From: Gemmatimonadota bacterium
GTDB lineage: Bacteria; Gemmatimonadota; Gemmatimonadetes; Longimicrobiales; Gaopeijiaceae
Assembly (NCBI GenBank): GCA_030827315.1
Contig: JAURER010000016.1
Location: forward strand, 1-64,000
Reading direction: 5' to 3'
Length of the DNA stretch: 64,000 nucleotides
This document shows, piece after piece, positions 3,001 through 56,571 of this stretch (position 1 is its first letter; each line of letters opens with the position of its first letter). The translations under genes were made by a program, and so were the position numbers. The notes under the pieces are model-generated. The model saw nothing but the letters and a program-made list of their open reading frames with translations. It was not told where the DNA came from and ran no database searches.

Positions 3001-3954
3001 TCGGCGCGCCAGCATGCCAACGAGGTGTCGTCGACGAGCCATGTCCTGCGCCACGCAGAGCTCCTGCTCACCGACTCGCTCCAGCGCCGGAAGCTGGATC
3101 GGGTCAACGTCGTCGTGCACCCCTTCACCAACCCCGACGGCGCGCAGACGGCGTACGATCTGTACAGGATCACCCCCGACTACATTCTCCACGCCGGGTA
3201 CCTGGGCTCACTCGGCCAGGACGCGACCTCGGGCGGAAACGACACGCACCCCCTCTACCCCGAGTCGACGGTGCGCGACCGGCTGTGGCAGACCTGGCTT
3301 CCGGACATCTTCCTCAACCCGCATGGGTACCCGTCCCACCAGGTCGTCCAGCTCTTCTCCGAGTATACAGGCCTCGTTCGGCGCGGCCGGGTCACCGAAC
3401 GCAACTGGGGGTTCAACAAGGGCTGGTTCATGCCGGGTTTCGGCTACGTGGACAGCCCCGAGTACCCGCGCCACCGCGACGCTGCGTTCACCATCCGCGA
3501 CTACATCACGCGGGGGATCAACTCCAACCGGGACGTCTTCGAATTCAACCAGAAGATGTACGAGCGGTACGAGCGCTACGGCGCCCGCTGGGACGACGAC
3601 GTCTTCAACCTCCCCATGACCGACTCCGTCATGATCGAGATGCCACTCAAGGGTTCATCAGGCGGCGGCGGCGGCTACAACCCGCGGGTGACCATCTGGA
3701 GCGGGACGACGGAGGCACCCGACGAGACCGCGTACGGACCGTACATGGAACTCATGGGCAAGGCCGGGCTCTCCTGGGACCAGGCGCTCACCGATTACCT
3801 GTACGACGGCGACCACCGGGTGAACCGCTCGGGCTCGACCTTCTTCGGCGGCGTGACGCTGCGCATGAACCGCCCGAGGCCCCCGGAAACCAACGACGAT
3901 CCCGGGGCGAGCGCCGACCCGCCGCCCACCGCAGGCACGCCCGGTGCCCGATGA
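1..3954 (+). CDS. Large M14-family zinc carboxypeptidase, 5' end missing
   Basis: The reading frame is open from the first base of the window, so the true start lies upstream; 1316 codons are visible from a GTG at 4. The M14 catalytic domain is at the C-terminal end, about residues 940-1260 of the visible part. The zinc site is visible as HANE (H1004, E1007) and a later His in NPHGYPSH (H1107), with NPDG between them; E1212 in MIEMP is the likely catalytic Glu. M14 enzymes remove C-terminal residues from peptides or cleave cell-wall peptides. Typical M14 domains are about 300 residues, so roughly 900 residues upstream are unassigned; they look globular, with no clear repeats. The signal peptide, if any, is outside the window. 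Substrate is unknown. The next gene follows after 109 bases. Confidence 0.85.
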   Translation, partial: PVDPASLDGGEGVVATSTVDGRTWVFVLGGDDEGLLAAARLLAGVLPHTRTLSTAKLESVREDLTGALEGAEVTGAVVRVVQARARAGSDGIARVVVEVTGDDPAATARALAWMTTADGQAPAAAQQADTVGQVAEPADTTGASGRDEPAAPEADERARAPLAYPGLASVEVRVAGGPTLRLPGRARPDAPGPVAGRPGAGDKDDLDLSNVYTSDGLLGGSPIPSSVDAIVVPGNAGTNGLPELAGRLGLESTGLNVPLVHIASSIERPASRPTMVLAGVDNRLITQLADSGAVDVASLQPGEGLIELVPDAFGSKPALVVTGANAAGAERALQQLAVTFPHLDARGKDRPTLDDVERGLWDELSGHAPAGQAAIGLYKLERLASELERGALRSASVLMSVDKADPGLEAVVSERASALTGLEDVPVTIDDRDVRNAATIFHESVTFPSEVDRFWDALRQRVLPSARGASVRLEAHLSEPPEVRARIADEARRALLDAGASEAGTEVVVLSAFKQGFSWLYDSVRPRIEGRNPAQIVIRFRRNDPPPEWPQQAIQTPVRWLHEIFPIAEVLARDLELPPEAIHFEEVREGPTYEVIVADATGGEILRETFDPRVVVRPYFDRFRDYEQVRVTTGWLTATAGSATLADERIVTDPEAFWDYFQATVLPAMYDHVMELHDGLPRGGSEDAPFFGQLTVELEMSEPDYRLGIDNEIHASMDALHEEIYFGTIEFFDVLGRNSRGQGITFPGRIVPVMRPKADGGAPRAEVKVTGFATSRPAVVLAYETTDGTVDTLRLDIPKTSLERPSARLARVRTGEPGLAHLALRVRVDTDRDMRDSLVATTSELQVDERMVSAEQVVATLRELEALRAAGLYTESLAWPGLGSLEVWAEWTHGQDAENRRVGTLAANGTPSPLPDWRSLLPRGWRYDGSRIVQWDTPIPPPEGHEMLAKMVEAFPEATMYRVGGSYLGKDIWAMDLMPPLRASHWSHVKATTFKPTVVYSARQHANEVSSTSHVLRHAELLLTDSLQRRKLDRVNVVVHPFTNPDGAQTAYDLYRITPDYILHAGYLGSLGQDATSGGNDTHPLYPESTVRDRLWQTWLPDIFLNPHGYPSHQVVQLFSEYTGLVRRGRVTERNWGFNKGWFMPGFGYVDSPEYPRHRDAAFTIRDYITRGINSNRDVFEFNQKMYERYERYGARWDDDVFNLPMTDSVMIEMPLKGSSGGGGGYNPRVTIWSGTTEAPDETAYGPYMELMGKAGLSWDQALTDYLYDGDHRVNRSGSTFFGGVTLRMNRPRPPETNDDPGASADPPPTAGTPGAR

Positions 3955-4063
3955 CGCGGCGGAGCCGCGCGGGAACCCGCAGGACGATCGGGGGTTCGCA
4001 CCGATCGCAGAATTGCACCGTTCGGACCAGCCCGGACGGCAACCCGACCCTCCCGGAACGACC

Positions 4064-4525
4064 ATGAAGAAGACGCTCGCCGGCCTTCTCCTCCTGTTCG
4101 CCGTCGCCGCGTGCGGCGGGAGCGAGGCCGACACCGACACCGACGCCGCGACGACCAGCGAGAGCGCGGCGCCCGAAGTCTCGGGGACGGTGACCATCGT
4201 GACGCCCGCGAATGGCGCCCTCATCAACGGAAACCAGATCAGCGTGACGCTCTCGTCCACGGTCGAGATCGTCCCCGCGGGCACGATGACCGTGGGCACC
4301 GGCCACCATCACCTGTACCTGAATGCGGACCTGTCGCCGGCCGATCAGCCGGTTCCGACCGTGCCGGGCAGCATCATTCACATGGGTGACGCGTCCAGCA
4401 CCTACGTGTTCCAGGACGTTCCGGCCGGCGAGTACCGGCTGATCGCGGTCGTGGCCGATGGGCTCCACATCCCGCTGCAGCCTTGGGTCGTGGACACCGT
4501 AAGCTTCACGGTCCAGAACCAGTAG
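4064..4525 (+). CDS. DUF4399 lipoprotein
   Basis: A 153-residue protein that starts MKKTLAGLLLLFAVAACGG, a clear lipoprotein signal with the modified Cys near residue 17. I chose the ATG at 4064 because the signal peptide begins exactly there; the frame is open further upstream but that part overlaps the preceding gene. The body matches DUF4399, recognised by GTGHHHLYLN, a His cluster that could bind metal, and by the PxxV-type beta sandwich strands after it. DUF4399 proteins are small periplasmic or secreted domains of unknown role. An Asp/Thr/Ala-rich linker follows the lipid anchor. The gene is followed within 30 bases by a strong hairpin. Function unknown beyond the domain call. Confidence 0.8.
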   Translation: MKKTLAGLLLLFAVAACGGSEADTDTDAATTSESAAPEVSGTVTIVTPANGALINGNQISVTLSSTVEIVPAGTMTVGTGHHHLYLNADLSPADQPVPTVPGSIIHMGDASSTYVFQDVPAGEYRLIAVVADGLHIPLQPWVVDTVSFTVQNQ

Positions 4526-5113: not shown

Positions 5114-7570
5114 ATGAACGTTTCCTCCACCGTCATGCTCGTCGCGGGCCTGCTCCTCTTCGGCCTCGCGGGAAACGCGGGCGTCGAGACGCCGGACACG
5201 GCGCGCTCCTCGCATGCGGCCGCGCTCGCCGAAGCGGGCTCACTCGACTCGAACGACGTCATCGAGCAGTACTGCACCCGGTGTCACAGCGAGCAGCGCC
5301 AGCGCGGTGGCCTCGTACTGGAGGACTTCGACGTCGCGAGCGCCGCGGAGTATGCCGACATCTCGGAGCGCATGATCAAGAAGCTGCGCGCCGGCATGAT
5401 GCCGCCTGCAGGTGCACGGCGCCCGGAGGGCAACGAGCTGGAGCAGCTCATGCACGAACTCGAGCAGCGCATCGACGCGGCCTGGGAGAAGAACCCCGAG
5501 CCCGGCACCCGCGTCTTCCAGCGGCTCAACCGGGCCGAGTACGCGGCCGCCGTCGAGCACCTGCTGGGCATCCAGGTGGACGTCTCGTCGTTCCTGCCGC
5601 TGGACACCAAGAGCGCCAACTTCGACAACATCGCCGACGTGCAGATGCCGTCGACGACGGTGGTCGAAGGGTACCTGCGCGCAGCGGGCCAGATCGCGCG
5701 CGTCGCGCTCGGCGACCCCGAGGCCGAGGTCGGCAACGCCATCTACCGCATGCCGCGCGTCGCCTCGCAGAAGGACCAGGTCGAGGGCGCACCGTTCGGA
5801 ACGCGTGGCGGCCTCTCGGTGGTCCACACCTTCCCGGCGGACGGCAAGTACGTCTTCCACATCATGCCGTACAACGCCGTCGAAGGAGAGGTTTTCGGCC
5901 GCACCTGGGGCGAGGACCAGATCGAGATCTCGATCGATGGCGAGCGCGTTGCGCTGCTCGGGATCGATCGCTGGATGCACGAGTCCGAGCCGACGGGGCT
6001 GAACATCCGCACCGACTCGATTCAGGTCACCGCCGGCCCGCACCGCGTGACCGCCGCCTTCGTGAAGCAGTTCGAGGGTGACCTCGACGACCTGATCCGC
6101 CCCATCGACCACACGCTGGCGGACGGGCAGATCGGCATCGGCTACGGCGTCACCACGCAGCAGCACCTGCAGCGGATGACGATCCTCGGGCCCTTCGAGG
6201 TGACCGGCGTCTCCGACACTCCCACGCGCCGCTTCGTCTTCAGCTGCCGACCGACTGCTCCCTCCGAGGAGCGGCCCTGTGCAGAGAGCATCGTCCGCCG
6301 GCTCGCGACGCGCGCGTACCGCCGCGACGTCAACGATCAGGACGTCGAAGGTCTGATGCAGTTCTACGACCAGGGTGCGGAAATCCGCGGCTTCGAGGGC
6401 GGCGTCCGACTCGCCCTGCAGGCGATCATGGCCAGCCCGCACTTCATCTTCCGGATGGAGCAGGCGCCGGCCGACGTCCGGCCCGGCGAGATCTACGAGA
6501 TCGCCGACTCCGACCTCGCTTCGCGCCTCTCGTTCTTCCTCTGGGGTGCGCCCCCGGACGAGGAGCTGATCCGCGTGGCCCAGAAGGGGGACCTCTCGAA
6601 GGACCGCGAGCTCGAGAAGCAGGTCCGCCGGATGCTGGCGGACCCCCGCGCCGAGGCGCTCGCCTCGCGTTTCGCGGCCCAGTGGCTGCGTCTGCAGGAC
6701 CTCGACAACATCCGGCCGGACGCGCTGAGCTACCCCTACTACGACCAGACCCTCGCGGACGCGATGCACCGCGAGACCGAAATGCTCTTCGACCACATCC
6801 GGACCGAGAACCGTCCGATCACGGAGCTGCTCACGGCAGACTACACGTTCGTGAACGAACGCCTTGCCCGTCACTATGGCATGCCGGGCGTGCTCGGGAC
6901 GGACTTCCGCATGGTCGAGTACCCCAACGACGCCCGGCGCGGAATCCTCGGCCACGGCAGCATCCTCACGCTGACCTCGCACGCGAACCGCACGTCACCG
7001 GTGCTCCGGGGCAAGTGGGTCATGGAGGTCCTGCTCGGATCGCCGCCGCCACCGCCCCCGCCGAACGTGCCCGCGCTCGAGGAGACGGAGGGAGCAGAAG
7101 ACGGTCGTTTCCTTTCCGTCCGGGAGCGCATGGAGGTCCACCGGGCGAACCCCGCGTGCTCTTCCTGCCACAACGTCATCGACCCGATCGGGCTTTCTTT
7201 CGAAAACTTCGATGTCACGGGCGCCTGGCGTAACCGCGACGAAGGGAACCCGATCGACTCGCAGGGCGACCTGTACGATGGAACCCCGCTCTCCGGAGTG
7301 GCCGACATCCGTGCGGCGATCCTCAGCCGTCCCGAGGTCTTCTACCGCATCTTCACCGAGAACATGATGGCCTACGCGCTCGGCCGTCGCGTCGAGTACT
7401 ACGACATGCCCTCGGTTCGTGAGATCACGCGCGACGCGGCGAACGAGCAGTATCGCCTGTCCGCCTTCGTGTGGGGCGTGGTAAACAGCCCCGCCTTCCG
7501 CACCAGCCGCGCCGCAGCTCCCGTGGTTGCCGAACAGCAGCCCGTTTCGGAGCCCGGCTCCTTCAACTGA
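5114..7570 (+). CDS. DUF1587/DUF1592/DUF1588/DUF1585 protein with two CxxCH motifs
   Basis: An 818-residue exported protein. Residues 1-20 form a Sec-type signal. A cytochrome-c-like CTRCH (54-58) follows, in a region resembling planctomycete-type cytochrome domains. Next come DUF1587 (starting near RLNRAEYAAAV, about 137), a carbohydrate-binding-like middle part (DUF1595), DUF1592 (about 410-560), DUF1588 with CSSCHNVIDPIG (682-691) and C-terminal DUF1585 ending in LGRRVEYYDMP and VNSPAFR. This multi-DUF arrangement is common in Planctomycetes, Acidobacteria and Gemmatimonadota and has no established function; covalent haem at the CxxCH sites is an inference. It is the first gene of a four-gene run (gaps 32, 46 and 13 bases) with a DUF1552 protein directly downstream, the usual partner. 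AGGTAGGA just ahead supports the ATG at 5114. Confidence 0.88.
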   Translation: MNVSSTVMLVAGLLLFGLAGNAGVETPDTARSSHAAALAEAGSLDSNDVIEQYCTRCHSEQRQRGGLVLEDFDVASAAEYADISERMIKKLRAGMMPPAGARRPEGNELEQLMHELEQRIDAAWEKNPEPGTRVFQRLNRAEYAAAVEHLLGIQVDVSSFLPLDTKSANFDNIADVQMPSTTVVEGYLRAAGQIARVALGDPEAEVGNAIYRMPRVASQKDQVEGAPFGTRGGLSVVHTFPADGKYVFHIMPYNAVEGEVFGRTWGEDQIEISIDGERVALLGIDRWMHESEPTGLNIRTDSIQVTAGPHRVTAAFVKQFEGDLDDLIRPIDHTLADGQIGIGYGVTTQQHLQRMTILGPFEVTGVSDTPTRRFVFSCRPTAPSEERPCAESIVRRLATRAYRRDVNDQDVEGLMQFYDQGAEIRGFEGGVRLALQAIMASPHFIFRMEQAPADVRPGEIYEIADSDLASRLSFFLWGAPPDEELIRVAQKGDLSKDRELEKQVRRMLADPRAEALASRFAAQWLRLQDLDNIRPDALSYPYYDQTLADAMHRETEMLFDHIRTENRPITELLTADYTFVNERLARHYGMPGVLGTDFRMVEYPNDARRGILGHGSILTLTSHANRTSPVLRGKWVMEVLLGSPPPPPPPNVPALEETEGAEDGRFLSVRERMEVHRANPACSSCHNVIDPIGLSFENFDVTGAWRNRDEGNPIDSQGDLYDGTPLSGVADIRAAILSRPEVFYRIFTENMMAYALGRRVEYYDMPSVREITRDAANEQYRLSAFVWGVVNSPAFRTSRAAAPVVAEQQPVSEPGSFN

Positions 7571-7602
7571 CCGCATCACCAACCTCGACGAGGCTCACTA
7601 CG

Positions 7603-8991
7603 ATGGACTTCATCACCGGAAAGCACATTTCGCGGCGGGAGCTGCTCAAGGGCATGGGCGCCACCGTCGGACTTCCGCTTCTCGATGCCATGGTCCCGGC
7701 GGCCCGCCCGCTCGCGGCCACCGAGGCTGGGAAGGCGGCCGACAGCACGCGCCTCGTCTGCATCGAGAACGTGCACGGTGCCGCAGGGTGCAACGACCTC
7801 GGCGCGTCGCTCGGACTCTGGTCGCCGAAGGAAGAGGGCAAGGACTTCGATCTCTCCCTCAGCTCCATGAGCCCGCTCGAGCCGTACCGAAAGTACCTCA
7901 CGATCGTGAGCGACACGGACTCCCGCATGGCCGACGCCTTTTCGCCGGCCGAGATCGGTGGTGACCACTTCCGCACCGCGGCGGTGTTCCTGACACAGGC
8001 GCACCCGAAGCAGACGCAGGGCTCCGACGTCTATGCGGGCACGTCGTTCGACCAGATCTACGCCCAGCACATCGCGGGTGAGACGCCGATCCCGTCCATG
8101 CAGCTGACCATCGAGAACGTGGACCAGGCCGGCGGCTGCGCCTACGGCTACTCCTGCGTCTACACGGATACGATCAGCTGGGCCTCCCCCACGGCGCCCC
8201 TGCCGATGATCCGCGATCCGCGGGCCGTGTTCGAGCAGCTCTTCGGCGCGGGCGGCACGCCCGAGCAGCGCGCCGAGCGCCTGGCGACCGACCGCAGCAT
8301 CCTGGACTGGGTCATGGGCGAGATGTCCGGACTGCGCCGCCAGCTCGGCGCGGCGGACCGCCAGCGGCTCGACCTCTACACGACGAACATCCGCGAGCTC
8401 GAGCAGCGCATCCAGCGCATCGAGGCGCAGAACGCCTCCGGCGAGGAGCGCGAGATTCCCGAAGCGCCCGTGGGCGTGCCGGACGACTTCGCCGAGCACA
8501 TGCGCCTCATGTTCGACCTGCAGGTTCTCGCGTTCATGTCCGACTCGACGCGCGTCTTCTCGCTCAAGATGGGCCGCGACGCGTCGCCGCGGGTCTACCC
8601 CGGCTCGGGCTCTGACACCCCGTACCACGCCGCCTCGCACCACGGCGGCCGGGAGGACAGGGTTCGCGACTTCGCGAAGATCAACCAGTATCACGTGGCG
8701 ATGCTGCCGTACTTCCTCGACAAGCTGTCGTCGGTCTCCGAGGGCAACGGCACGCTGCTCGACAAGACGATGATCATGTACGGATCGGCGATGGCCGACT
8801 CGAACCTTCACAACCACATCCGCTGCCCGCTCTTCCTGGTCGGCGGATCGAACGGGCTGGTGGAAGGCGAGCGTCACCTCCGGGCGACGCCCGGCACGCC
8901 CATGGCGAACGTGATGCTGGGGCTGCTGCACAAGCTCGGCATCGACGACATCACGCAGTTCGGCAACAGCAACGGCACGTTCGCCATCTGA
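7603..8991 (+). CDS. DUF1552 protein with twin-arginine-like signal
   Basis: A 462-residue protein starting MDFITGKHISRRELLKGMG, a Tat-like leader (RRELLKG followed by a hydrophobic stretch). The start at 7603 is chosen because the leader starts there; the frame extends upstream only into the preceding gene. DUF1552 (Pfam07586) is recognised by the family hallmark HxxSHH, seen here as YHAASHHGGRE, near residue 342, and by MYGSAMADSNLHNH and PLFLVGG near the end. DUF1552 is related to the DUF1501 and alkaline-phosphatase/sulfatase-like superfamily, but no reaction is known. It is encoded directly after the DUF1592 protein in many genomes, which implies joint action outside the cytoplasm. If Tat-exported, it folds, and perhaps loads metal, before transport. 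Confidence 0.88.
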   Translation: MDFITGKHISRRELLKGMGATVGLPLLDAMVPAARPLAATEAGKAADSTRLVCIENVHGAAGCNDLGASLGLWSPKEEGKDFDLSLSSMSPLEPYRKYLTIVSDTDSRMADAFSPAEIGGDHFRTAAVFLTQAHPKQTQGSDVYAGTSFDQIYAQHIAGETPIPSMQLTIENVDQAGGCAYGYSCVYTDTISWASPTAPLPMIRDPRAVFEQLFGAGGTPEQRAERLATDRSILDWVMGEMSGLRRQLGAADRQRLDLYTTNIRELEQRIQRIEAQNASGEEREIPEAPVGVPDDFAEHMRLMFDLQVLAFMSDSTRVFSLKMGRDASPRVYPGSGSDTPYHAASHHGGREDRVRDFAKINQYHVAMLPYFLDKLSSVSEGNGTLLDKTMIMYGSAMADSNLHNHIRCPLFLVGGSNGLVEGERHLRATPGTPMANVMLGLLHKLGIDDITQFGNSNGTFAI

Positions 8992-9037
8992 CATGTACGA
9001 CACTTCGTCGGAGGCGCAGGCCTTCGGGAGAAAGACC

Positions 9038-10894
9038 ATGAGGAACACAGCCCTTCGCCTGGCCAGCGTCTTCGCGCTGAGCCTCCTGATGGTGGGTGCC
9101 GTCCCCGCGGAGTCGCCGGTGGCCGACGCCGCTCAGGCGAACGACGCGCAGCAGGTGCGGGCGCTTCTGCAGCAGGGCGCCGACGCGAACGGCGCGCAGG
9201 CGGACGGGCTCACCGCCCTCCATTGGGCAGCACTCAATGACAACCCCGAGGTCGTCGGTCTCCTGCTCTACGCAGGGGCGACCGTGCGACCGCTGACCCG
9301 GGTCGGTGGGTACACGCCGCTGCATCTCGCTGCCCGGTCGGGCCACGTCAACGTGGTGCGTGCGCTCCTCGACGCGGGGGCCGATCCGAACGAGTGGACG
9401 ACCACAGGGGTGACGGCCCTGCACTTCGCGGCGCAGGCCAACGACGGAGCGTCCGTCCGGGCCCTCGCAGCCGCCGGTGCCGACGTGAACGCGACGGACC
9501 GGTTCCAGAGCCGGACGCCGCTCGTCTTCGCTGCGGGCCGCAACGCGACGGACGCGATCTCCGCACTCCTCGAGACCGGGGCGGACCCGTCGATCACGAC
9601 GGAGCTCAAGGACTACACCGCCCGCAACCAGTTCGACGACGACGAGCGTGCCCGCCGGGCACGCATCCGCGCCGCCGAGGTCGGAGGCGAGCCGGTGAGT
9701 AACGACAACGCCGATCTGCTCGGGCAGCAGACGCGCGGCCGCACGCCACCGGACAGTGCTCAGGCCGCCGAAAGGCCCGAACGAGAGAAGCCCGCCGAGA
9801 CGGAAGAGAAGAAGGAAGAGGCCAAGCCCGCCGAGCCGCCGATCCGGGTGCTCAGCTCCACGGAGCAGATCGGCGTCCAGGGCGGCTTCACCGCGCTCCA
9901 CTACGCGGCGCGTGAAGGCAACGTCGAGGCGGCACGGCTCCTGCTCGACGGGGGCGCCGACATCGACCAGCTGTCGGGCGGCGATCAGTCGTCTCCGCTC
10001 CTGGTCGCGGTCATCAACGGCAACTACGACCTGGCCCTCATGCTGGTGGAGCGGGGTGCCGATCCGAACCTGGTCAGTGACGACGGAGCCGGTCCGCTCT
10101 TCGCCACCCTGAACATCGAGTGGTCACTCAGGACTTGGTACCCGCAGCCGCAGGCGTTCCGGACGCAGCAGAACTCCTACCTGGACCTCATGGAGGCGCT
10201 GCTTGAGGCGGGCGCCGACCCGAACCAGCAGGTTTCCACCCACATCTGGTACTCGGCGTACAACGCCGGCCGGATGGGCGTGGACTTCACGGGTGCCACG
10301 CCCTTCTGGCGCGCCGCGTACGCCACGGACGTGACCGCCATGAAGCTTCTGCACTCTTACGGGGCCGACCCGAACATGTCCACGACGAACCTCCCCGAGC
10401 GCCGTCGTTTCCGCGATCCGGGCAACCCCGGAGCGCAGACCGGTCCGGAGGACGAGGAAAAGCTCGATCCTTCCGGCCTTCCGCCCGTCCCGGTCGGCGG
10501 ACCCGCGGTCCATCCGATTCACGCGGCGTCCGGCGTCGGATTCGGAACGTCGCGCGTGGCCCAGCAGCACCGGAGTGTTCCCGATGGGTGGCTCCCGGCC
10601 ATGAAGTACTTCGTCGAGGAGCTCGGGGTCGATCCGAACCTCCGTGACATGGACGGCTTCACGCCCGTGCACCACTCCGCAGCGCGCGGGGACAACGAGA
10701 CGATCCTCTACCTGGTTTCGAAGGGGGCGGACGTGACGCTGGTCAGCCGCCGAGGTCAGACCACCGCCGACATGGCCAACAGCCCCGAGCAGCGGGCTCA
10801 GCCGCACCCGGCCACCATCGCCCTGCTCGAGAAGCTCGGATCCAAGAACAACCACAACTGCCAGTCCTGCGGTTCGGGCTCCGGCGGGAACTAA
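9038..10894 (+). CDS. Exported ankyrin-repeat protein
   Basis: A 618-residue protein. The ATG at 9038 is preferred over one at 8993 because GGGAG sits 7 bases ahead of it and MRNTALRLASVFALSLLMVG is a good signal peptide. At least eight ankyrin repeats are visible, with cores such as GLTALHWAALNDN, GYTPLHLAARSGH, GVTALHFAAQAND, GFTALHYAAREGN and GFTPVHHSAARGD. Two sets of repeats are split by a charged Pro/Glu/Lys linker (about residues 235-285). The tail ends NNHNCQSCGSGSGGN, with a CxxC pair that could bind metal or form a disulfide. Ankyrin repeats bind proteins, so it may scaffold the DUF1592/DUF1552 pair; similar three-gene sets occur in Acidobacteria and Gemmatimonadota (known context), but the role is not established. 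Confidence 0.87.
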   Translation: MRNTALRLASVFALSLLMVGAVPAESPVADAAQANDAQQVRALLQQGADANGAQADGLTALHWAALNDNPEVVGLLLYAGATVRPLTRVGGYTPLHLAARSGHVNVVRALLDAGADPNEWTTTGVTALHFAAQANDGASVRALAAAGADVNATDRFQSRTPLVFAAGRNATDAISALLETGADPSITTELKDYTARNQFDDDERARRARIRAAEVGGEPVSNDNADLLGQQTRGRTPPDSAQAAERPEREKPAETEEKKEEAKPAEPPIRVLSSTEQIGVQGGFTALHYAAREGNVEAARLLLDGGADIDQLSGGDQSSPLLVAVINGNYDLALMLVERGADPNLVSDDGAGPLFATLNIEWSLRTWYPQPQAFRTQQNSYLDLMEALLEAGADPNQQVSTHIWYSAYNAGRMGVDFTGATPFWRAAYATDVTAMKLLHSYGADPNMSTTNLPERRRFRDPGNPGAQTGPEDEEKLDPSGLPPVPVGGPAVHPIHAASGVGFGTSRVAQQHRSVPDGWLPAMKYFVEELGVDPNLRDMDGFTPVHHSAARGDNETILYLVSKGADVTLVSRRGQTTADMANSPEQRAQPHPATIALLEKLGSKNNHNCQSCGSGSGGN

Positions 10895-10907
10895 GCGGAG
10901 TCACGGG

Positions 10908-11441
10908 ATGAAGCGATCGGTGTTCCCCGGACTGGCGGTAGCGCTCCTGCTGCCGGCCCTCGCGGAAGGCCAGGACACGGAGTGGAACCGGTACACCCTC
11001 GAGGACCTCGGGGGTGTGCACGTTCGCTTCGAAATCGACGACGTGTGTCAGGGCGCCGGCATCACCGCGGCGCTCTATGAAGCCGATGCGTCGCTGAAGC
11101 TCATCGAGTCCGAGGTGGGCGTGCTGACCATGCAGGAAATGCTCGCCAACCCGGCCATGCCGGAGCTCCGCATCGACGTCGCCTGCGCCGAGGGGTCCGA
11201 AGGTGCGAGCGGGGCTATGGCGTGGTCGGTCGCGCTGCGTGTTCAGCAGTCGGCTCAGATGCTTCGTGACACGCAGATCACGCTTCCCGAAGCGGTCACC
11301 TGGTTCCACGGCGAGCTGGGCGCCACCTCGGCGGGCGGAGCGGCGGATGCGGTCGGAAGCGCCGTCATGCGGCAGATCGACCTGTTCGCCGCCGCGTGGG
11401 CCGCCGCGCACGCGACCGACGCGGGCGGCGCCGACCGGTAG
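10908..11441 (+). CDS. Small exported protein of unknown function
   Basis: A 177-residue protein with a signal peptide (MKRSVFPGLAVALLLPALAEG). No family recognised. It has two Cys (in DDVCQGAG and DVACAEG) that could form a disulfide, and a helical Ala-rich C-terminus (FAAAWAAAHATD). CGGAG lies 8 bases ahead of the ATG and the gap from the ankyrin gene is 13 bases, so it is very likely the last gene of the DUF1592 operon; a terminator follows. Its second half resembles the protein at 62983-63498 in layout (a VAC segment, then ALRVQ, then an AW-rich end), so the two may be distant paralogues; this is judged by eye only. Confidence 0.7.
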   Translation: MKRSVFPGLAVALLLPALAEGQDTEWNRYTLEDLGGVHVRFEIDDVCQGAGITAALYEADASLKLIESEVGVLTMQEMLANPAMPELRIDVACAEGSEGASGAMAWSVALRVQQSAQMLRDTQITLPEAVTWFHGELGATSAGGAADAVGSAVMRQIDLFAAAWAAAHATDAGGADR

Positions 11442-11471
11442 CGGTCCGGACCTGCCGAAGGCATCATATCG

Positions 11472-11501
11472 GGGCGGACGGGTCGGACGACCCGTCCGCC
11501 C
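11472..11501 (+). terminator. Intrinsic terminator of the DUF1592-DUF1552-ankyrin operon
   Basis: Arms 11472-11485 and 11488-11501 are perfectly complementary (13 bp can form around a GGAC loop), followed by TTCTTCGTT, a pyrimidine tract with several T. Lies 30 bases after the stop of the operon's last gene and just ahead of the DUF1028 gene. Confidence 0.8.
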
Positions 11502-11529
11502 TTCTTCGTTCCGGCTCCAAGGAGATGTG

Positions 11530-12372
11530 ATGCGCCGCTCGAACGCCGCCCGCCTGACGGGTGCCCTGCTCCTCGCGACGGCTCTCGCCGCCGCGCCGAA
11601 GCCCGCCGCCGCCACCTGGTCGGTCATCGCGGTCGATGCGCGCACGGGCCGCGTCGTCGTCGCCTCCGCGACGTGCGTCGCGCAGGCCCGGCTCGTGAGC
11701 TTCCCGGCCAAGGGCCTGATGGACATCCAGGCGATCGTGGTGCCCGGTGTCGGGGTCGCGGCCGCCCAGGCGGGTGTCGACCGGACCCGCGCCAATCAGA
11801 CGCTGATCTACGAGCAGCTGAAGGACGGCATGGACCCGAGGCTCATCCTCGACATGCTGAAGGACGACCCGGCCATCGAGCGCCGGCAATTCGGTATCCT
11901 GGACCTGCAGGGCCGCTCCATCGGTTTCAGCGGCGCCGAAAACGGCGCCGCGTCCCTCTCCCGGCAGGGGCGGGTCGCCGGCACCGAGATCTACTACTCC
12001 GTTCAGGGCAACATCCTCGCCTCCGACGCGGTCGTCCTGAACGCGGCACGGGCGCTGGAGCAGGCCCCGGGCGACATCACAGACAAGGTGATGGCGGCCA
12101 TGGAGGCCGCGGACGAGGCCGGTGGCGACAGCCGCTGCACCTGCGACACCGAGCCCGTGCCGGACGCGCCGTGCGACGGTCGCAACGCGCACGTGGCCTA
12201 CATCCTCGCCGCGGACCGGAACGACCCCGAGGGCGAATCGTTCAACGACGGTCGCTACGCGATGTTCATCGACGTCACCGACGAGAACATCCGGCCGACG
12301 GAGAACGGCAACCCCGTGATCACGCTCCGGATGCGCTACGACGCCTGGAAGGCGGAACGCCGGCAGGAGTAG
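11530..12372 (+). CDS. DUF1028 family exported protein (Ntn-hydrolase fold)
   Basis: A 280-residue protein. AAGGAG at 11519-11524, 5 bases from the ATG at 11530, fixes the start and gives a signal peptide ending near PAAA|TWSV. DUF1028 is recognised by TWSVIAVDARTGRVVVAS near the mature N-terminus, PGVGVAAAQAGVD, and FGILDLQGRSIGFSGAEN. The family has an N-terminal-nucleophile hydrolase-like fold and is often near peptidases; no reaction is proven. The exposed Thr after the predicted cleavage site would fit an Ntn nucleophile, which is an inference. Four Cys near residues 200-220 (CTC, then PCDG) are an extra feature that could be disulfides. A terminator on each side suggests a single-gene transcript. 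Confidence 0.85.
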   Translation: MRRSNAARLTGALLLATALAAAPKPAAATWSVIAVDARTGRVVVASATCVAQARLVSFPAKGLMDIQAIVVPGVGVAAAQAGVDRTRANQTLIYEQLKDGMDPRLILDMLKDDPAIERRQFGILDLQGRSIGFSGAENGAASLSRQGRVAGTEIYYSVQGNILASDAVVLNAARALEQAPGDITDKVMAAMEAADEAGGDSRCTCDTEPVPDAPCDGRNAHVAYILAADRNDPEGESFNDGRYAMFIDVTDENIRPTENGNPVITLRMRYDAWKAERRQE

Positions 12373-54853: not shown

Positions 54854-54924
54854 CACAAAGGTTGTGGGCGATTCGCCGGCACCGTAGCCTGAGCGGACCC
54901 ACAGGCCCCCAGGGAGCCGGACCG

Positions 54925-56571
54925 ATGCGCCTGAACGCCTCTTCCCCTCTGATCGCCACAGCGCTGCTGGCGATGGCATCGTGTGCACCGTCGCCTCCCT
55001 CCGCGGAAGCCGACGCGGGCCCGCCGAACATCCTGCTTATCATCGCCGACGACCTGGCCTACGCGGACCTGGGCAGCTACGGCGGGGACGTCTCCACGCC
55101 GAACATCGACGCATTGGCCGCCCGGGGTGTCCGCTTCACCCAGTTCCACACGGCCCCCATGTGCGCGCCCACCCGGGCCATGCTCCTCAGCGGCAACGAC
55201 AACCACGTCGCCGGTATGGGCATGCAGGGCGGCGCCCCGCCTCCGCTGGACGCGGAGCCGGGGTACGAGGGATACCTGTCCGATCGGGTCGTCCCCTTCC
55301 CGAAGCTCCTCCAGGACGTCGGGTACCAGACCTATTCGGTGGGGAAGTGGCACCTGGGCACCCGACCGGAGCACACGCCGACGGCTGCGGGCTTCGATCG
55401 CTCCTTCCAGCTGCTCCAGGGCGCAGGAGACCATTTCAGCGACATCGCGCTCTCCGGCCGGGACAGCGTCTCCAGGTACTGGGACGACGGCGCGTATGGA
55501 AGCTGGCCCGAGGGCGGCTATTCGACGGAGGTGTACACGGATCGACTCCTGGGCTTCATCCGGGACGGGCTCCCGGAGGCGCGCCCCTTCTTCGCCTGGG
55601 TGGCCTACACGTCACCGCACTGGCCCCTCCAGGTCCCGGACGAATACCTCGATCGGTATCGGGGACGATACGACATGGGGTACGACCGCCTCCGTGAACT
55701 CCGCTTCGAGTCCCTCCAGCGCGCGGGCATCGTGCCGCGCGACCGGACGCTTCCACCTCGTCGTGAAGAAATCACGCCATGGGAGCAGCTGTCCGCGGAA
55801 GAGCAGCGTATCGAGTCGAGGAAGATGGAGCTCTACGCCGCGATGGTGGAGAACCTCGACCACCATGTCGGTCGGCTCCTGGACGCCCTTTCCGACGAGG
55901 GCGTCCTGGACAACACGCTGGTCGTCTTCCTGTCGGACAACGGAGCTGCAGCGGAGGACTTCTACCGAAGCGGCAGCTACTCGGATTGGCTGCAACGCAA
56001 CTACGACAACCGCTACGAGAACATGGGCACGCGCACGTCGTACGTGTCGTACGGCCCCCAGTGGGCGGAAGCCGGCTCGGCACCGTTCCGTGGCCACAAG
56101 GGATGGGCCCACGAGGGCGGCATCGTCGCGCCGATGATCGTCGCCGGACCGGGCGTGGCCGGAGCCGGCTCCATCCAGCAGGCCTACGCCGGCGTGTCGG
56201 ACCTGGCGCCGACCCTCCTGGAGGTCGCGGGTGCGGAGTACCCCGGACCGTTCGGCACGGCCAGGACCCGCCCCATGTCAGGCTCGAGTCTGCTGCCCCT
56301 GCTTCGCGGCGACGCGGACCGCGTTCACGCTCCCTCCGAGCTCCTCGCCCTCTCGCACGCAGGTCAGGCGTATGTCCGGCTGAACCAGTGGAAGCTGGTA
56401 TCCGAAGACCAGTTCACCGGACTCGAAACATTCGCGCTCTACGACCTCGACAGCGATCCTGGGGAAACGACGGATCTGTCGGGGCGCTTTCCGGACAAAC
56501 GGGCCGAGCTCCTGGATTCCCTGACCGCCTTTCGCGCGCGGGTGGGCGTCGTGACGCCCGAGCCGCGCTGA
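54925..56571 (+). CDS. Sulfatase lipoprotein
   Basis: A 548-residue type I sulfatase. The ATG at 54925 begins a lipoprotein leader (LLAMASC, Cys 20). CAPTR at 80-84 is the C-x-P-x-R motif whose Cys is turned into formylglycine by a separate enzyme; NILLIIADDLAYADLGSYGG (metal Asp 42-43), GKWHLG and LSDNGA are the other active-site landmarks; PFRGHKGWAHEGGIVAPMI closes the site. It would remove sulfate esters from polysaccharides or small aryl compounds outside the cytoplasm, typical of marine bacteria. No sulfatase-maturing gene is nearby. GGGAG lies ahead of the ATG. Confidence 0.9.
   Translation: MRLNASSPLIATALLAMASCAPSPPSAEADAGPPNILLIIADDLAYADLGSYGGDVSTPNIDALAARGVRFTQFHTAPMCAPTRAMLLSGNDNHVAGMGMQGGAPPPLDAEPGYEGYLSDRVVPFPKLLQDVGYQTYSVGKWHLGTRPEHTPTAAGFDRSFQLLQGAGDHFSDIALSGRDSVSRYWDDGAYGSWPEGGYSTEVYTDRLLGFIRDGLPEARPFFAWVAYTSPHWPLQVPDEYLDRYRGRYDMGYDRLRELRFESLQRAGIVPRDRTLPPRREEITPWEQLSAEEQRIESRKMELYAAMVENLDHHVGRLLDALSDEGVLDNTLVVFLSDNGAAAEDFYRSGSYSDWLQRNYDNRYENMGTRTSYVSYGPQWAEAGSAPFRGHKGWAHEGGIVAPMIVAGPGVAGAGSIQQAYAGVSDLAPTLLEVAGAEYPGPFGTARTRPMSGSSLLPLLRGDADRVHAPSELLALSHAGQAYVRLNQWKLVSEDQFTGLETFALYDLDSDPGETTDLSGRFPDKRAELLDSLTAFRARVGVVTPEPR

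Follow-up and report, generated by a model that had tools for sequence, protein, structure and literature searches.

A cytochrome-DUF1552-ankyrin gene set in Gemmatimonadota and its possible role in envelope electron transfer

The operon described here contains a core of three genes that recur together within Gemmatimonadota and in other bacterial phyla. These genes encode a PSD/PSCyt protein of the DUF1592 family with two haem-binding motifs (hereafter the cytochrome), a DUF1552 protein with a twin-arginine leader, and an exported ankyrin-repeat protein. We propose, with a probability of roughly 45%, that the trio forms a sugar-oxidising electron-transfer complex of the cell envelope, in which the ankyrin protein would serve as a scaffold or as a helper of the haem enzyme. 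The redox part of this proposal is better supported than the carbohydrate substrate. Planctomycetes, Verrucomicrobia, Acidobacteriota and Gemmatimonadota carry numerous copies of PSD/PSCyt and DUF1552 genes. For these families, a testable redox hypothesis now follows from a third partner that is constantly present, the predicted fold, candidate ligands that do not vary, and fusions with domains that bind or oxidise sugars.

Gene layout and conservation of the trio

The window, which is the whole stretch of 64,000 nucleotides that was analysed (positions 1 to 64,000 of contig JAURER010000016.1), comes from a 3.07 Mb draft genome (GCA_030827315.1) that is 98% complete. Within it, four genes run in a single direction with intergenic gaps of 32, 46 and 13 bases, and recomputing the gene calls, direction and gaps of the original prediction gave an exact match. 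The features discussed below are as follows.

5114 to 7570, + strand: dihaem-motif PSD/PSCyt protein (DUF1592 family, Pfam), 818 aa, Sec-type leader
5273 to 5287, + strand: haem motif 1, CTRCH, C54-H58, conserved in 47/47 sequences
5726 to 6199, + strand: predicted beta-sandwich like CBM6/CBM35/CBM36, residues 205-362 (AlphaFold2 model, pLDDT 82)
7157 to 7171, + strand: haem motif 2, CSSCH, C682-H686, within PSCyt3/DUF1588, conserved in 47/47 sequences
7603 to 8991, + strand: DUF1552/HXXSHH protein, 462 aa, twin-arginine leader ISRRELLK (Pfam 3e-86, 290 bits)
8626 to 8643, + strand: HAASHH motif, H342-H347, in 50/50 sequences, with H347 in 49/50
9038 to 10894, + strand: exported ankyrin-repeat protein, reading frame open from 8993 (Pfam Ank, 196 bits)
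10859 to 10870, + strand: C-terminal CxxC (NNHNCQSCG) of the ankyrin protein, common among partners
10908 to 11441, + strand: small exported protein, 177 aa, conserved C47 and C93, no Pfam family
11471 to 11502, + strand: hairpin, plausible intrinsic terminator (-32 kcal/mol, z -5.0)

Sec or Tat leaders had been recognised on three of the proteins, and these hold; judged by eye, however, all four proteins carry a leader. We place the start of the ankyrin protein at the ATG at 9038, which is preceded by GGGAGAAAG and at which a Sec-type leader begins. The operon had also been said to end in a clear terminator. The hairpin is indeed strong, but the T-rich tail behind it has interruptions, and a consensus scan found terminator-like sites no more frequently than in shuffled sequences. 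Thus, it is a plausible terminator that is not proven to be one. A consensus scan for sigma-70-like promoters found none. The operon is flanked upstream by a DUF4399 gene (3944 to 4525) and, straight after the hairpin, by a DUF1028 gene (11530 to 12372) that the orthologous operon keeps in several genomes of the genus.

The host genome carries six cytochrome-DUF1552 pairs, including the one at this locus. Five of the six run on into an ankyrin gene, and the sixth reaches a contig end right after DUF1552. Among 49 genomes comprising the host and its relatives, DUF1552 is present in 26 and the ankyrin family in 27, at neighbouring positions, and genomes that lack DUF1552 also lack the ankyrin family with one exception, which is a fragmented assembly. 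The Gemmatimonadota loci that we fetched, part of which were selected with their ankyrin matches already known, hold 76 DUF1552 genes. An ankyrin gene lies directly downstream of 68 of these genes. Four others open a tandem doublet of cytochrome-DUF1552 pairs that closes with a single ankyrin gene, three have a divergent ankyrin gene upstream of the cytochrome, and one lies at a contig end. Regions of the phylum selected on PF07586 alone include the ankyrin gene in 20/20 cases.

The original prediction had proposed a survey of gene neighbourhoods, with absence of the ankyrin gene from relatives as the outcome that would speak against it. Instead, the gene was found for 75/75 assessable DUF1552 genes in Gemmatimonadota and at 74 of the 80 loci of a wider scan. 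The titles of these loci include Acidobacteria, Gammaproteobacteria and Gemmatimonadetes; the query was built from ankyrin-bearing copies and covers only part of DUF1552 diversity. Two of the six ankyrin-less loci stop close to DUF1552. The ankyrin gene is therefore a true partner of the DUF1552 gene, as had been supposed. Trio order varies across phyla and includes divergent and convergent placement of the ankyrin gene, and one alphaproteobacterial case was found; a Novosphingobium strain carries all three genes. In a mirror-tree comparison of 57 trios, the correlation of pairwise distances among the three proteins is r 0.90-0.92 (permutations reach at most 0.35), although part of this correlation arises because the operons share ancestry. 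Judged from these sequence distances, the three proteins appear to co-evolve.

Several genomes carry tandem arrays (L096, L097, L121 and L127) in which a cytochrome-DUF1552 pair without its own ankyrin gene is followed by a complete trio. Near several trio loci there is also a gene for a cytochrome-like protein followed by one for a secreted protein without a Pfam family (for example, L193 11583-12998 and L191 10821-12338).

The small fourth protein, which had been taken as part of the defined system, is an accessory to one orthologous copy of the operon. Its gene occurs as a single copy in 17/49 genomes, adjoins the orthologous ankyrin copy wherever both places are listed, and has no paralogue that we could find in the other trio operons of the host genome. 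The core therefore consists of three genes, not four: those for the cytochrome, the DUF1552 protein and the ankyrin protein.

Haem motifs of the cytochrome and redox contexts of its relatives

The Pfam domains of the cytochrome are arranged in the order PSCyt1-PSD3-PSD5-PSD4(DUF1592)-PSCyt3-PSD2, of which the series from PSD3 to PSD2 scores above Pfam cut-offs. Both of the CxxCH motifs predicted for this protein are present, at residues 54-58 and 682-686, and are invariant. Residues M96, C378 and C389 are likewise invariant among the 47 sequences, and M96, which lies downstream of haem motif 1, is a candidate distal ligand. The host genome encodes two cytochrome-c assembly (PF01578) proteins. 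PDB sequence searches with the cytochrome, and with its haem domain alone, returned nothing reliable.

A fold search with the predicted structure, which effectively covers residues 203-364 and barely probes the rest of the chain, shows that the beta-sandwich resembles CBM36, CBM6 and CBM35 modules with Z up to 10.2. This value belongs to the CBM36 part of XynJ (VIA Z 10.2, rmsd 2.6, 104 aligned). The sandwich has no Pfam CBM match. Sandwiches of the CBM type are common and a Z of 10 is moderate, which calls for caution in reading this predicted domain as a carbohydrate binder.

Relatives without an ankyrin gene point to redox work on carbohydrates. In Pseudoalteromonas, a single chain of 2157 residues (L270 778-7251) unites three CBM26 domains, a glucose/sorbosone dehydrogenase, a cytochrome c and the PSD block, and the DUF1552 gene follows 16 bases downstream of this fusion. 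In Planctomyces SH-PL62, the gene order is DUF1592-DUF1552-3-keto-disaccharide hydrolase. In Sphingobium the loci lie on plasmids, PSCyt1 is missing from the PSD block, and the neighbours of this block are DUF1552, cytochrome c' and cytochrome b561; at one of these loci b561 is annotated and the slot of c' is an unannotated gap. All of these informative fusions and operons come from divergent, ankyrin-less relatives.

The operon had been described as being of unknown function, and we consider the invariant haem motifs and the contexts of these relatives to narrow that description to a redox role with a lean towards carbohydrates. Specifically, the cytochrome would be of the c type, carry two haems in covalent linkage and be placed on a glycan or glycoside by its CBM-like domain. 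Electrons from the oxidation of a sugar, or something similar, would enter one haem, pass through the other, and move on to the respiratory chain, carried either by a cytochrome b in the membrane or by a cytochrome c in solution. The substrate might be oxidised by a separate sugar dehydrogenase, or else by the Tat-exported DUF1552 protein, which has a predicted phosphatase fold and whose invariant histidines could coordinate a metal. For the ankyrin protein we envisage binding to the cytochrome or to the DUF1552 protein, either as a scaffold or to help assembly, in the way that ankyrin proteins assist haem catalases.

No dehydrogenase gene was found as a fixed neighbour of the trio in Gemmatimonadota. 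A glucose/sorbosone dehydrogenase query had matches at two other loci only, and this enzyme is thus not a fixed neighbour. PQQ dehydrogenase genes lie near 25 loci, yet the genomic background is high, with at least 11 to 48 matches per genome in 14 other genomes and five in the host genome. Since their presence near the loci matches this background, they show no linkage to the trio.

The trio could instead be a periplasmic oxidase or dehydrogenase that acts on aromatics, steroids or other small molecules, or that defends against oxidative stress, with the ankyrin protein as a helper. Sphingobium copies have monooxygenase, Rieske or acyl-CoA dehydrogenase genes in their vicinity, and the best-known ankyrin partners are those of catalases (PMC7567364), both of which are in line with such a role. 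We nevertheless regard it as unlikely, though worth keeping in mind, given that the CBM26 and sugar dehydrogenase fusion, the neighbouring 3-keto-disaccharide hydrolase and the CBM-like domain favour carbohydrates.

Predicted fold of the DUF1552 protein and the possible role of the ankyrin partner

The DUF1552 protein contains both a PF07586 match and the HxxSHH motif. Across 50 sequences, the twin arginine of the leader (R11 and R12) is invariant, as are six histidines (122, 299, 342, 346, 403 and 425) and S345. A PDB sequence search returned nothing reliable, and none of the phage records searched encodes DUF1552. The AlphaFold2 model (pLDDT 83) folds like members of the alkaline phosphatase/sulfatase superfamily: its best structural match is a carrageenan sulfatase (Z 15.8, 268 aligned), and the matches listed belong to this superfamily.

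This predicted fold suggests that the DUF1552 protein might be a catalytic hydrolase of glycan sulfate or phosphate esters, to which the cytochrome and the ankyrin protein would contribute auxiliary binding parts. However, the sulfatase C/S-x-P/A-S/T-R signature occurs in 4/50 DUF1552 sequences, at scattered positions expected of chance matches, and the DNG motif in 2/50, whereas both sulfatases of the host genome carry the signature and the DNG motif. Where conserved metal-binding residues are concerned, hhalign sets the sulfatase SDN(G) against SAMA of DUF1552 in a weak alignment. A profile comparison of DUF1552 with sulfatase gave a probability of 1.7%. Despite the superfamily-like fold, classical sulfatase chemistry is unsupported for DUF1552. 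A hydrolase also gives no account of the two invariant haem motifs, and we judge this explanation quite improbable. One of the only two sulfatase genes (PF00884) of the host genome lies in the window at 54862 to 56571 and has an intact CAPTR signature.

A bolder version of the sugar-oxidising complex is that DUF1552 is a phosphatase-fold protein whose active site has been turned into a histidine-bound metal centre for glycan oxidation, coupled through the dihaem cytochrome, with the CxxC of the ankyrin protein taking part in a redox relay or in haem insertion. Such a system would represent a new class of envelope oxidoreductase, a prospect we rate as similarly improbable. The CxxC (NNHNCxSC) stands at the extreme C-terminus of 60/67 typical ankyrin partners, and divergent clades lack this tail. 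Similarity of the ankyrin protein to Legionella effectors (AnkY, AnkH and others; NCBIfam) reflects the repeats and falls far under the model cut-offs, and such an identity was rejected. At another locus of the host genome (L019, C20), there is a lone and weakly similar ankyrin match without DUF1552.

The cytochrome might also donate electrons to lytic polysaccharide monooxygenases (LPMOs), as Cbp2D of Cellvibrio does. The architectures are similar, each with a CxxCH domain, DUF1587 and a large second CxxCH domain, and the X183 domain of Cbp2D reduces LPMOs (PMC8981238). We searched for an AA10 LPMO partner (PF03067) and found none in the 98% complete host genome, which makes this role very unlikely. 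Finally, it is most improbable that the ankyrin gene is merely carried along by synteny with no joint function: although ankyrin-less DUF1592-DUF1552 pairs exist, the adjacency holds outside Gemmatimonadota and under differing gene orders, divergent and convergent ones included, and absence of DUF1552 goes with absence of the ankyrin family in all genomes except the fragmented one.

Comparison with known systems

The component families are already known, and the trio appears to be undescribed in the literature that we searched, a body that leaves most subscription papers outside it. There, PSD/PSCyt and DUF1552 receive passing mention only, and no paper mentions DUF1552 alongside either ankyrin or DUF1592. 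Among the closest precedents are the planctomycete-specific cytochrome (PSCyt/PSD) proteins surveyed in Verrucomicrobia, which share the Pfam domains of the present cytochrome and also occur in many copies per genome; PSCyt3 genes there usually adjoin a family of unknown genes (PMC5615132). In the available part of that survey, an ankyrin partner is not noted, whereas in the present system an ankyrin gene regularly makes up the third member.

In Cbp2D of Cellvibrio japonicus, the LPMO-reducing c-type X183 domain is accompanied by DUF1587 and a CxxCH X132 domain (PMC8981238), and a Cellvibrio DUF1592 protein with CBM2 has also been listed (PMC6004670). The present cytochrome resembles Cbp2D and TERTU_3803/TERTU_2913 of Teredinibacter turnerae, proteins with X183 and X132 domains, in being secreted and in combining two CxxCH domains, the second of them large, with a small DUF domain (PMC8981238, PMC10916295, PMC12542752); its own link to carbohydrate binding is a predicted one. 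However, Cbp2D and TERTU_3803 have true CBMs and their hosts degrade plant polysaccharides, whereas the cytochrome has a predicted fold like CBM6/35/36. In addition, a PDB sequence search with its N-terminal haem domain gave no match to X183, and the genome offers no AA10 LPMO as acceptor.

The DUF1552 protein shares its predicted overall fold with the alkaline phosphatase/sulfatase superfamily, but it is histidine-rich and does not conserve the sulfatase nucleophile and DNG motifs. For the ankyrin protein, the parallel is with partners of haem catalases, such as the AnkB-KatB, Cj1386-KatA and Leptospira ank-katE pairs (PMC7567364, PMC3349705), in which the ankyrin protein is required for catalase activity, probably by enabling haem binding (PMC7567364). 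In both settings an ankyrin protein is tied to a haem enzyme or a candidate for one, and in Leptospira the two genes form one operon. In contrast to the catalase partners, the ankyrin gene described here stands beside a DUF1552 gene and one for a protein with two invariant haem motifs, and its product ends in a CxxC.
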